Assembly (NCBI RefSeq): GCF_900107195.1
Contig: NZ_FNPB01000005.1
Span: forward strand, 186,001 to 250,000
DNA length: 64,000 bases
Origin: Halobellus clavatus
Lineage (GTDB): Archaea; Halobacteriota; Halobacteria; Halobacteriales; Haloferacaceae
Direction of reading: 5' to 3'
The notes under the pieces are model-generated. The model ran no database searches, was not told the origin of the DNA, and saw only the letters and a program-made list of their open reading frames with translations. Made by a program: the position numbers and the translations under genes. Below, one piece after another: positions 9,859-19,857 of the stretch. Each line of letters begins with the position of its first letter. The stretch's first letter is position 1.

Positions 9859-9918
9859 CTCCCCGATTCGATTCCCAGACCGATCCGGAATAATGCTCGC
9901 TACCGCTCGCAGACTACG

Positions 9919-10001
9919 CGGTGGGACTGGGATTCGAACCCAGGAGGCATAACGCCACCTGCTTTCAAGGCAGGCGCAATAGGCCACTCTGCCATCCCAC
10001 C
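9919..10001 (-). tRNA. tRNA-Ser (anticodon UGA)
   Basis: An 83-nt class II tRNA on the minus strand: acceptor GGTGGGA paired with TCCCACC plus discriminator G; anticodon stem CCTGC/GCAGG around loop CTTGAAA, anticodon TGA; a variable arm; and T arm CTGGG-TTCGAAT-CCCAG. Its 5' half is duplicated at 19808-19857, so this gene is the attachment site of the neighbouring element. Confidence 0.95.
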
Positions 10002-10003
10002 GC
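9954..10003. repeat. direct repeat, left att copy (within tRNA-Ser)
   Basis: A 50-bp segment covering the tRNA anticodon region to its 5' end, repeated at 19808-19857 with one mismatch (position 9983 G versus 19837 T). Weaker homology continues leftwards (GGAGGC at 9943-9948 and 19797-19802), with five different bases between. Confidence 0.9.
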
Positions 10004-10136
10004 GACGTTCCAGACTGTCCCCGTTACGTCACGCGATTTTGACGGCTTCACAGGTGAACTGAATGATTCCAACACGTTCCACCGCGCCTCAGTTGAACTG
10101 TTCCGAAACCGTCGAAGTCGCCGTCATACAGGGACT

Positions 10137-11237
10137 ATGAGTACGAAGAAACCCGACAAAGTTGAAGGTATCGTTCTTATTCCGGAGCCGTCACGGGATT
10201 TCCTTACAGAGCGGAAACTGGTCGCATACGGTAGCCACCGCCGGGAGTTTCTAAAGTGGCTCGCACGGCAGGGGAAGAACCCGGATGCGCTCGAAGGATA
10301 CGCGCACGACACCGCAAAGAACTACGCGAGCATTATCGACAAGTTTCATAGATACGTCTGGGAGGAGTACGGATACACCCTCGACATCAACCACGACGCC
10401 GCTGAAGACTACCTTCGGTCGTTAGTTATGGCCGACGACGAGTACTCTCAGTCGCACCTCCACAACGTCAAACTGGCGTTGATGACATATTTCCGTTTCG
10501 CGGGCGACAAGTGGGAGCCGGACATCACTATCCCCTCGTCTTCCGGGGTCTCCCAACCTCGTGATTTCCTTTCGGACGAGGAGCGAACAGCACTCCGTGA
10601 AGGGGCGTTAGAGTACGGAGCCGTACCTGCCTACTCCGCGTTAGACCCCGACGAACGAACGGAGTGGAAACTCCTGTTGGCGCGACGATACGGAAAGCCC
10701 GTTTCCGAGGTCTCAGAAAAAGACTGGGATCGGGCAAATGGTTTCAAGTATCCGAGTCTTCTTCACACCGCCCTCGACGCGGGTCTGCGACCTATAGAAG
10801 TGTCCCGTACTCGTACTTACTGGGTCGACGTTGACAACGCGACACTCCGGATCCCCGAGGATGACTCCTCAAAAAACGAAGACAACTGGACGGTCAGCCT
10901 TCGACGGGAAACGGCGGAGTATCTTGCCCGGTGGCTTGAAGAACGCGAACTATACGAGAAGTACGACGACACCGACAGACTGTGGCTTACGCGTCACTCG
11001 AACCCGTATAGCGGTTCGTCGTTACGGTATGTCCTCGACGCTGTCTGTGACCTCGCGGAGATTAATAGAGACATATCGTGGTATGCGATCCGCCACTCCA
11101 CGGGGACATATATGGCCCGCGAGGAGGGCCTCGCCGCTGCACAGAGCCAACTACGACACCACAGTATCGAGACGACGGCCAAGTACGACCAAGCACCGGT
11201 TGAAGACCGTCGAGACGCCCTCGATAGGATGGGGTGA
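10137..11237 (+). CDS. tyrosine recombinase / integrase
   Basis: A 366-residue phage-type integrase. The N-terminal SAM-like, core-binding domain covers about residues 25-130. The catalytic domain has Arg218 (AGLRPIEVSR), Arg319 in YAIRH, His342 (LRHHSIETTAKY) and the nucleophile Tyr350. The first His of the HxxR box appears as Tyr316. It would cut and rejoin DNA at the tRNA-Ser att site. The frame is open back into the tRNA; I chose ATG 10137 since the upstream part is tRNA sequence. A small ORF follows 4 nt after the stop. Confidence 0.93.
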   Translation: MSTKKPDKVEGIVLIPEPSRDFLTERKLVAYGSHRREFLKWLARQGKNPDALEGYAHDTAKNYASIIDKFHRYVWEEYGYTLDINHDAAEDYLRSLVMADDEYSQSHLHNVKLALMTYFRFAGDKWEPDITIPSSSGVSQPRDFLSDEERTALREGALEYGAVPAYSALDPDERTEWKLLLARRYGKPVSEVSEKDWDRANGFKYPSLLHTALDAGLRPIEVSRTRTYWVDVDNATLRIPEDDSSKNEDNWTVSLRRETAEYLARWLEERELYEKYDDTDRLWLTRHSNPYSGSSLRYVLDAVCDLAEINRDISWYAIRHSTGTYMAREEGLAAAQSQLRHHSIETTAKYDQAPVEDRRDALDRMG

Positions 11238-14120: not shown

Positions 14121-14444
14121 TTATCCAGCAAAATACTCACGCAGTTCGTCTTCGTATTTATCGCCTATGCGGTACTCTGCGTGTTGGTGACTTTCGTCTG
14201 TCCACCGGGCGTTAATTAGATCTCGGCTGAAACCTTTGGAATACCATTTAGTGTAATGCCCCTGATGAGCGGATATCGCTCCCGGTTTCTCCGGAACAGA
14301 CAAACCGTACTCATCCCTCATTCGTTGTCGTAATTCAACACCACGTATCCACTCGCCTTCGATGTCGAGCAGTATCTGAAGTAGTGCCTCTTTCTTTGGT
14401 GAAAGCCGTTCGTAGAAGTCGTTGGGGAGGTGGTTTCGGGGCAT
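14121..14444 (-). CDS. small protein with winged-helix-like fold
   Basis: A 107-residue protein. Residues 8-50 (FYERLSPKKEALLQILLDIEGEWIRGVELRQRM) have a helix-turn-helix-like pattern. The C-terminal part is aromatic and charged (HQGHYTKWYSKGFSRDLINARW). I chose ATG 14444; the frame extends to 14468. It may be a transcription regulator of the element. No close family recognised. Confidence 0.6.
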   Translation of the reverse strand: MPRNHLPNDFYERLSPKKEALLQILLDIEGEWIRGVELRQRMRDEYGLSVPEKPGAISAHQGHYTKWYSKGFSRDLINARWTDESHQHAEYRIGDKYEDELREYFAG

Positions 14445-14489
14445 CAGCACTTTTCTACTACAGCGCACCTCTTGGTGTTTGGGGATAAT

Positions 14490-16841: not shown

Positions 16842-17631
16842 ACCTGTTTTGGTGGCATTATCAGTTCTCCAAGTGGACTGTCTCAGAAGTCTCGGCTCCG
16901 CGAGGTTTTTATCGAAACCGCACGTATAATCTCGTGGAGCGAAAGACTCCGTCGCCGTGCTTTCCGTTGGATCGGGCTTTCCTATGGGACGGACGCCCCG
17001 ATCCGTTTTCCGTTCCTACTGTGTAAACTGACCTCCTTACCCAGCGTAGGCACTCGATCTTCTTAAACCTATCATCTATATGATAATAGGCTGCTTGTCC
17101 TATAGGATACTACGATAATAGCGGTTAGTCGGGATCGTTTAAGATGACAGCAACCACCTCACATTTGTCGTTGTTCAACTCGAACAGTTTGTAGATACCC
17201 ACGGGGAGAAATCACGAGATCTGCTCTGGCTGTCTTGACCGCCCCCTTCGAAGGTCTGAAAATCGTAAATCAAGCGAAAACCCCCACCCGGAGAATATGA
17301 CGGGAGTGGCTCGCTGGCTCTACTGATACCCTCGTTGACCCCCTTACTACGCCGGCAACTCGCGCTACTACTGACCCCGAGAGACGGTGTGAAAGTACCA
17401 AGCCTTTCTTATGCTTTTTGTATCGTCTCGTTGGTCTCGATACGGCGCGAGTTCGCAGAACAGTTGTTGGTATCGACCAAACCTGTAGAGGTATGTGAAT
17501 CCGTCACTACCCCTCTGTTTCGACTCGAGAGGCTCGACCGGGTCGGTATCAGGACACAGGTAATTCTGCTTGCGGTTTTACCAGCGTTAGGTAGGTAGGT
17601 TCGAGTTGGAAAGACAGTTTGGAATGCCGTT
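16842..17631. other. 790-bp gene-free region with palindromes (candidate origin/control region)
   Basis: I see no convincing gene. The plus-strand frame at 17335-17598 has unsuitable composition for a halophile protein. The region holds the promoter of the ATPase operon and a cluster of CCTAT-containing palindromes at 17068-17107. A 25-codon minus-strand frame at 17125-17202 is too short to accept. Confidence 0.5.
17068..17107. repeat. clustered palindromes
   Basis: CCTATCAT (17068-17075) faces ATGATAATAGG (17080-17090). This is followed by the perfect palindrome TCCTATAGGA (17098-17107). The AT-rich setting, about 230 bp upstream of the ATPase operon, suggests protein-binding sites for replication or autoregulation. 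Confidence 0.5.
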
Positions 17632-18231
17632 CTATTCGACTATCCACGAGATTATCGCGCCCTGCTTGTGAATCGTGTGTTGGAGTCCGGAGAAGTGCGA
17701 TATCTCGCAAACACTTGCCTCCACGTCGTACCAGTAAGCAACGTCTTTAGCGATTTTATCTGCTATGTCCTCGGCGGTGTATCGACTTGGGAGAGCGTCA
17801 ACGGTTTCGGGTTCGTCGTCTGCTCGTTTGTAGAATAACCCGAGTAAGCCCCCTCGATCTCCGATTTCCGATTCTGTGAGACTATGTGCGTCAGTCAACA
17901 GCGTGTTCTTATGGAACGGGCTGAACACGTGTTTGTACATATTTGGCTCCGGGTCGCCGTTCGCCCGCCAGTAACGGATTAATTTGGCTTCAACTGGTGT
18001 CCCGTCTGGTAGCATCAGGTCACACCGTTCAGCACTCTCCGGATAGGGAACTTCTCGTTCTACTTCTTGATACCGACTGTCTTGCTCGCGGAGTTCGTCG
18101 AGTAGAAGTTCGATCTGACGTTCTTCGTTTTCCGACCCGATCCCGTCTCCGTACTGACCACCTGTTCGGCTATCAACGTCAGGTATCACCTCCGCGATAT
18201 CCTCAGTAAGGTCTGACAGTCCATCAACCAT
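17632..18231 (-). CDS. PD-(D/E)XK-type nuclease-like protein
   Basis: A 199-residue protein with a plausible PD-(D/E)XK core: REVPYP (Glu60), then CDLMLPDGTPVEAKL with Asp71, Glu81 and Lys83. This is the metal-binding signature of many restriction-like endonucleases. The region after it (KHVFSPFHKNTLLTDAHSL) and the C-terminal ISWIVE strand complete an alpha/beta fold. It is divergent from a GIY-YIG nuclease gene 147 bp away. No methyltransferase is adjacent. A TATA-like box, TTTTACTC, lies about 25 nt before ATG 18231. Confidence 0.72.
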   Translation of the reverse strand: MVDGLSDLTEDIAEVIPDVDSRTGGQYGDGIGSENEERQIELLLDELREQDSRYQEVEREVPYPESAERCDLMLPDGTPVEAKLIRYWRANGDPEPNMYKHVFSPFHKNTLLTDAHSLTESEIGDRGGLLGLFYKRADDEPETVDALPSRYTAEDIADKIAKDVAYWYDVEASVCEISHFSGLQHTIHKQGAIISWIVE

Positions 18232-18378
18232 ACAACCAGTTGCGCTACTGTTGAGTAAAAGCCAGCGACGGGAACAGTCGGTTGAACCATACCCACCGAA
18301 GGACTGTAGACCTAAACATACGGCTACCACCACACGTATCCCGGAGAATCTTGTTCTTGCGGAGTGAATCCGGTGGTA

Positions 18379-19089
18379 ATGTCACGAGAGTCTGACCTCC
18401 ACCGTCTATATCGTCTACTGACCGACCTCGAAGACCGTATCGGTGGAAAGCAACGACTCGGAGACTGTACCGGGTATATGGACTGGCCTGAGCGTGGTGT
18501 CTACTTCTTTTTCTCACACGACGAACACATAGATACAGGCGACCAGCACCGTCTGACACGGATCGGGACGCACGCTGTTTCCGCTGGTTCAGGAACGTCG
18601 CTATGGAACCGACTTCGAACACACCGAGGAGCAAACAGCGGGACGTATGGAGGAGGCGGCAACCACCGAGGATCCGTGTTCCGAAAGCGCGTCGGAGAAG
18701 CCCTCATCGAACGCCACGACCTCCACGACGAGTACCCCTACTGGGGGGAAGGGTCAAGTGCCGACCGCGACCGACGACTGGACGAGCACGAGCACGAACA
18801 ACGAGTTAGCGAACGTATCCGTGACCTCCCGTTTCTGTGGGTCGATGTAGACGACGAACCCGGCCCGGATAGCGACCGAGCGTACATCGAACGGAACGCT
18901 ATCGCACTCGTAAGCAACTTCGAGAAAGACGCTCTCGACAGACGTGACGACGACTGGTTAGGGAAGGAATCACCGAGACACGAGATACGGGGTTCCGGGC
19001 TGTGGAACATCAACCACGTCGAAGAAGACTACGACCCCGCGTTTCTCGACCGGGTCGCTGAGGCCGTCGAGAATACGACTCCCGCGTAG
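18379..19089 (+). CDS. GIY-YIG-type nuclease-like protein
   Basis: A 236-residue protein with an apparent GIY-YIG core: GVYFFF at 40-45 (first motif), RIGTHAV at 61-67 (second motif), Arg80 in LWNRLRTH, NHRGSVFRKRVG at 95-106, and Glu171 with Asn180 in ERNAIALVSN, matching the family's metal-binding Glu and terminal Asn. An insertion of charged residues (120-150) separates the motifs. I chose ATG 18379; an in-frame GTG lies at 18364. Head-to-head with the PD-(D/E)XK gene, it probably forms a defence or competition module. Confidence 0.78.
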   Translation: MSRESDLHRLYRLLTDLEDRIGGKQRLGDCTGYMDWPERGVYFFFSHDEHIDTGDQHRLTRIGTHAVSAGSGTSLWNRLRTHRGANSGTYGGGGNHRGSVFRKRVGEALIERHDLHDEYPYWGEGSSADRDRRLDEHEHEQRVSERIRDLPFLWVDVDDEPGPDSDRAYIERNAIALVSNFEKDALDRRDDDWLGKESPRHEIRGSGLWNINHVEEDYDPAFLDRVAEAVENTTPA

Positions 19090-19227
19090 CCACTTATTAT
19101 CCGAGACGGTTCGGACTGCTGGTGTAGCGGTCATACCTTCGGATTTTAGCCGTCCAAGTGTGGGGGTTCGAGGTCGGAAGACGTGGCTCCAGACGGCTTC
19201 ATACTGGACGTAGCGCGTCGTGCCGGC

Positions 19228-19807: not shown

Positions 19808-19857
19808 GCCACCTGCTTTCAAGGCAGGCGCAATAGTCCACTCTGCCATCCCACCGC
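19808..19857. repeat. direct repeat, right att copy (displaced tRNA-Ser 5' half)
   Basis: 49 of 50 bases match 9954-10003. On the minus strand it reads as the 5' half of tRNA-Ser through the anticodon arm, and into a variable arm (up to 19797) that then ends without a T arm. It is therefore the original chromosomal 5' half, pushed away by integration. Confidence 0.88.

Follow-up and report, generated by a model that had tools for sequence, protein, structure and literature searches.

The window, by which we mean the whole 64,000-nucleotide stretch of Halobellus clavatus DNA that was analysed, contains two small genes in a head-to-head arrangement, both with intact open reading frames. The first, P0001, lies on the minus strand (17632..18231, with its ATG at 18231 and its stop at 17632) and encodes a PD-(D/E)XK-like putative nuclease of 199 aa. 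The second, P0002, lies on the plus strand (18379..19089, with its ATG at 18379 and its stop at 19089) and encodes a GIY-YIG-type putative nuclease of 236 aa that belongs to the PDC-M57B family. Measured from ATG to ATG the two are separated by a divergent intergenic region of 147 bp (18232..18378); the mechanical open reading frame of P0001 begins at an upstream GTG at 18333 and an alternative GTG start at 18364 is possible for P0002.

The pair is carried by a 9.9-kb integrative element at a tRNA-Ser site (tRNA-Ser at 9918-10001). A tyrosine recombinase gene (10128..11237, plus strand, Pfam Phage_integrase E 4.5e-16) sits beside the tRNA gene, and the element is delimited by 50-bp direct attachment repeats, the left one within tRNA-Ser (9954..10003) and the right one, with one mismatch, at 19808..19857. 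The two genes occupy the distal, cargo end and stop about 720 bp short of the right repeat. No methyltransferase was found among the ORFs of the element, so that the adjacent cognate enzyme of a type II restriction-modification system is missing. An earlier note on this DNA had described just such an arrangement, two divergent genes 147 bp apart at the cargo end of an integrative element with no methyltransferase, and all of this was borne out. Elsewhere in the element a small gene at 14121-14468 resembles an ORF that neighbours a P0002 homolog in locus L108; it also gives a weak Pfam Ntox5 match (E 0.0035) that is probably without meaning.

In an alignment of 31 relatives of P0001 the residues E36, Q39, D71, E81, K83 and R86 are invariant, which includes the D and D/E-x-K of a PD-(D/E)XK catalytic site (D71, E81 and K83) together with E36. 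The AF2 model of the protein (pLDDT 85.7, pTM 0.85) consists of a helix (36-50), three strands (58-62, 69-73 and 79-86), a second helix (111-120) and a further strand (127-136). The second strand carries D71 and the third E81-x-K83, and the helix-strand-strand-strand-helix-strand order fits the PD-(D/E)XK core. Foldseek returned no match to the model at E 0.001 in PDB or BFVD; its weak matches include many PD-(D/E)XK enzymes, among them AdnAB, BsaXI, EcoRV and SfsA. P0001 matched no Pfam, NCBIfam, PADLOC or PHROG family and no PDB sequence. Judging from the model and the conserved residues, P0001 is probably a PD-(D/E)XK nuclease, of a haloarchaeal family that has been undescribed so far and that is present in 32 of the 292 haloarchaeal class genomes sampled. 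The annotation 'transcriptional regulator', which the family carries in plasmid records, was rejected, as no DNA-binding family was matched and the catalytic residues are invariant. Homologs with this label directly follow a 456-aa GIY-YIG gene in three loci (L215:2616-4579, L216:2625-4588 and L217:2616-4579), where the label is probably wrong. A virus or phage origin of the cassette was also rejected, with nothing in the phage collection and no IMG/VR match to P0001.

P0002 matches the PADLOC family PDC-M57B (PDLC04714) over its full length (residues 1-233, E 4.6e-74) and is thus already in a defence-candidate database. Residues G40, Y42, R61, G63, R78, H82 and E171 are invariant in 55 relatives and supply the motifs and residues of a GIY-YIG enzyme, the first motif reading G40-V-Y42 (GVYFF) and the second R61-I-G63, in which Y is replaced by R. 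The predicted catalytic Arg is R78, not R80, with H82 at Arg+4, and the same Arg+4 His spacing is found in the active site of R.Eco29kI (R104/H108, PMC1952068). Pfam PF01541 (GIY-YIG) matches only 1 of 25 relatives (E 0.26), the P0002 profile showed no significant similarity to other GIY-YIG families, one recognised by Pfam among them, and an AF2 model built from three sequences was of too low confidence to use (pLDDT 40); the GIY-YIG fold is therefore a provisional assignment made from motifs. Comparison of the P0001 profile with other PD-(D/E)XK-like neighbours likewise gave nothing significant, and shallow alignments probably account for both null results. The P0002 family is present in 73 of the 292 haloarchaeal genomes, and a Deinococcus plasmid carries a P0002-type gene with a DUF6884 gene before it.

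These results amend the earlier note in several respects. The active-site residues that it had named stand for Asp71, Glu81, Lys83 and Glu171, but its Arg80 gives way to R78. Its two nuclease folds agree with the core order of the P0001 model and with the motifs of P0002; no significant fold match was obtained for the former and no significant profile match for the latter. The HMM and Foldseek searches that it had proposed assigned P0002 to a family but left P0001 with none, and its description of the module as undescribed fails for P0002, whose PADLOC partner PDC-M57A is a DUF6884 protein.

Whether the pair recurs bears directly on whether it is a unit. Across the 292 haloarchaeal genomes, matches to P0001 and P0002 are adjacent nowhere except in the window, the nearest others being 37 kb apart; 9 genomes hold both families against 7.2 expected by chance, and none of 16 congeners does. 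A scan of GTDB found the same head-to-head pair in a Halorientalis MAG (sp. LUM.68, locus L182), which weakens the view, drawn from the 292-genome survey, that the genes are accidental neighbours. A single blastn match joins the two loci (79.8% over 1478 bp, 17627 to 19094 in the window), spanning stop codon to stop codon with no homology in the flanks, and so defines a two-gene cassette (17627..19094). The Halorientalis copy lies ~240 bp from a tRNA-Pro, beside chromosomal genes and without an integrase; recurrence in another genus and in an unrelated context argues that the pair is a real unit. Identity between the copies is 81-84% in the genes and 61% in the intergenic region, where short islands are conserved, and a TTTACTCAAC box ~30 nt upstream of P0001 is common to both. 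The dN/dS values against this copy, 0.10 for P0001 and 0.15 for P0002 (readable part only), show purifying selection on both genes, which is more than chance proximity would give. The P0002 copy in Halorientalis lacks one base and is frameshifted, being either broken or mis-assembled. A Deinococcus P0002-type gene (L218:5000-5700) is, like the Halorientalis one (L182:7685-7694), frameshifted between the GIY and RIG motifs, a shared position that may reflect chance, sequencing error or regulation.

The wider surroundings of the P0001 family point the same way. A GIY-YIG-type gene lies within ~1.5 kb in 17 of about 48 P0001-family loci, where the chance expectation per such family is ~0.01. Four families act as partners: that of P0002 itself (the window and L182), one of two-domain proteins that Pfam recognises (eight loci), one of 222 aa (two loci) and one of 456 aa, named GIY-YIG in RefSeq, directly upstream (five loci), so that 15 further loci have a partner other than P0002's own family. 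In some plasmids the P0001-family and GIY-YIG-type genes overlap by 4 bp or less, and pairing of this kind suggests function. In six of the 17 loci (L069, L081, L082, L084, L085 and L190) a DUF6884 gene stands between the two, and two more P0001-family loci keep a DUF6884 remnant. In about two thirds of the P0001 loci no neighbour of GIY-YIG type was recognised.

The strongest rival reading is that P0001 and P0002 are two independent single-gene defence nucleases which gathered at the end of an element and moved together once, with no cooperation between them. Co-occurrence at the level of genomes is, as given above, not beyond chance, most homologs of either family are found without the other, just two loci are known to pair P0001 with P0002, and the two genes have separate upstream regions. 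Against this, homology between the window and Halorientalis ends exactly at both stop codons, both genes are under purifying selection, and the P0001 family pairs with other GIY-YIG-type genes to the point of overlap. On balance we find independent action somewhat unlikely. The earlier note's view of the pair as a module is upheld by the exact cassette in Halorientalis and by the repeated company of P0001-type and GIY-YIG-type genes; conservation of the neighbourhood, which it had asked for, was found in that one copy from GTDB and, the window apart, in none of the 292 genomes and none of the 16 congeners.

Turning to the P0002 family, a DUF6884 or DpdC-like gene was found within a few genes in ~29 of 55 loci; neighbour counts here and above are lower bounds, since the gene caller, a simple acidity score, missed at least one DpdC-like gene (L094). 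Thirteen loci lie beside a DpdC-like gene (one decayed copy counted), mostly head to head and sometimes with one gene between, eight adjoin a short DUF6884 protein, and eight on Haloarcula-type plasmids have a DUF6884 gene a few genes off. The closest relatives of P0002 have a DpdC-like gene head to head (L094) or a decayed one (L092), so that P0001 appears to hold the place of the DpdC-like gene. Seven other P0002-family loci have PD-(D/E)XK-looking neighbours, and one such family also pairs with DUF6884. A family of 380-430 aa that Pfam does not match, and that shows a PD-(D/E)XK-like motif (GePDLlGV...VIEAKG), occurs with DUF6884 in five loci (L169, L171, L175, L176 and L177) and with a P0002-type gene in three (L106, L110 and L158).

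Some loci tie these genes to 7-deazaguanine functions. On a phage-like IMG/VR contig (L221:4701-8701) DUF6884 is fused to a P0002-type domain and overlaps queC, followed in a row by genes for a SIR2-like/AAA protein and a nucleoside deoxyribosyltransferase, possibly a 7-deazaguanine-linked defence or modification cluster. In L113:189-3908 DpdC-like and DpdA genes are divergent from a P0002-type gene, and this may be a compact 7-deazaguanine modification and restriction locus. A haloarchaeal locus (L180:4390-9251) has two DUF6884 genes beside a TGT-family gene (PF01702 E 1.8e-25, with a weak DpdA match). Within the window tblastn found no DUF6884 near the pair, and the sole PF21818 match in the host genome lies on another contig and is of plasmid-gene type. 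Neither DpdA nor a DpdC-like protein was detected in the host genome, the DpdC query having been run without a positive control.

Both families also keep company with defence genes, known systems as well as enzymes of restriction type or dependent on modification. Their neighbours include AspBHI-N/Mrr_cat, HNH and NucS_C proteins, and P0002 homologs adjoin Hachiman (HamAB), HEC-05 and type I modification genes. Such company among the homologs fits the defence role proposed in the earlier note, which had overlooked that the usual DUF6884 or DpdC-like component is absent here. For DUF6884, whose DNA-binding fold is YaaA-like, DNA binding and base flipping are predicted, and the DUF6884 protein YfjM binds DNA lesions (PMC11701544). 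DpdC converts dPreQ0 to dADG in DNA (PMC12839542), the DNA of halovirus HVTV-1 bears 7-deazaguanines (PMC6884629), and one known type IV enzyme that acts on modified cytosine is of GIY-YIG type (PMC12923530). Taken together with the defence and restriction-type neighbours, the DUF6884, DpdC and HVTV-1 background favours a restriction-like module, possibly one dependent on modification.

Our preferred reading, held with moderate confidence, is that the pair forms a mobile two-nuclease cassette, most likely restricting incoming DNA such as that of viruses, plasmids or rival elements, and that it belongs, as a variant, to a wider haloarchaeal network. The parts of this network would be a GIY-YIG-type nuclease, a PD-(D/E)XK nuclease and a DUF6884 or DpdC-like base-handling protein of YaaA fold, and the cassette is best read as a mobile, DUF6884-less variant of a PDC-M57-type nuclease network. 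The reading draws on features legible in the sequence, namely the cassette and its recurrence, the invariant catalytic residues, the purifying selection and the ties to DUF6884, DpdC-like and defence genes. Divergent promoters, one per gene, would yield both enzymes, which would act as nucleases on the same foreign DNA, at least one of them reading a feature absent from the host chromosome. Host DNA would be spared without a methyltransferase because it does not have that feature, for which a modified base would be our leading guess, 7-deazaguanines like those reported in HVTV-1 being an example. In this branch P0001 sits where close relatives of P0002 have a DpdC-like gene head to head with them, and it may have replaced that gene. 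As the window has no DUF6884 or DpdC-like gene near the pair, and neither DpdA nor a DpdC-like protein was detected in the host, the 7-deazaguanine link is borrowed from relatives only and could be wrong here.

A broader version would see a modified-DNA immunity built of interchangeable parts, in which a P0001-type protein can work with each of the four GIY-YIG-type families, a DUF6884 or DpdC-like base reader being optional, to fend off viruses whose DNA carries 7-deazaguanine or other modifications, and of which the window would carry the smallest, two-nuclease form; we think this unlikely, a shade more so than independent nucleases. An abortive or toxin-like module, in which infection leads one nuclease to attack the DNA or RNA of the host while its partner restrains it, would suit two small divergent genes and the frameshifted GIY-YIG copy in the MAG, which could be the trace of a toxic gene that was lost. 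Both proteins, however, keep invariant catalytic residues, which speaks against either being an inert antidote, the searches of Pfam, NCBIfam, PADLOC and PHROG gave no toxin-antitoxin family, and the neighbours are restriction-type enzymes, all of which makes such a module improbable. Equally improbable is that the pair serves not virus defence but the maintenance or repair of host or element DNA, such as the removal of lesions or of competing elements. Lesion binding by YfjM, the oxidative stress role of YaaA relatives and the NucS_C-containing neighbour in L071 could be cited for this role, but it sits poorly with the patchy distribution of both families among the 292 genomes, their location on elements and plasmids and their defence-gene neighbours.

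Of the two components, P0002 is a known candidate, the P0001 family is undescribed and the combination is, as far as we know, new. The PDC-M57 candidate gains a concrete and very small form, 1.46 kb, that can be cloned whole and tested in a laboratory haloarchaeon. DUF6884, GIY-YIG-type and PD-(D/E)XK proteins are tied into one network linked to 7-deazaguanine genes, and the archaeal response to viruses with modified DNA becomes a directly testable question.

Among known systems, conventional restriction-modification was rejected, there being no methyltransferase among the ORFs of the element. The type II enzyme R.Eco29kI (PMC1952068) shares with P0002 its active-site Y, R, H (at R+4) and E, which correspond to Y42, R78, H82 and E171, but it works with a cognate methyltransferase, and in P0002 the spacing from R to E is much longer and the second motif is RIG. 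CMoRE, a type IV enzyme acting on 5hmC DNA (PMC12923530), is likewise a small defence enzyme with a GIY-YIG motif and no methyltransferase; it is, however, a one-component enzyme that brings its own sensing domain and reads GIYxY, whereas the motif of P0002 is GVYFF and a second putative nuclease gene adjoins it. Relatives of P0002 are often head to head with DpdC-like genes, and once with DpdA, as might recall a Dpd system, but a complete one was rejected because DpdA and a DpdC-like protein were found neither here nor in the host, and the restriction set DpdD-K is absent. The closest known system is the phage-defence candidate PDC-M57 of PADLOC, a prediction for which our literature search found no paper reporting a test, and in which PDC-M57A is DUF6884 and PDC-M57B is the family of P0002. 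P0002 is a full-length PDC-M57B and its relatives lie beside or are fused to PDC-M57A; we do not count the cassette as a member, since a search for the DUF6884 component found none, and in this cassette the neighbouring place is taken instead by the PD-(D/E)XK gene.
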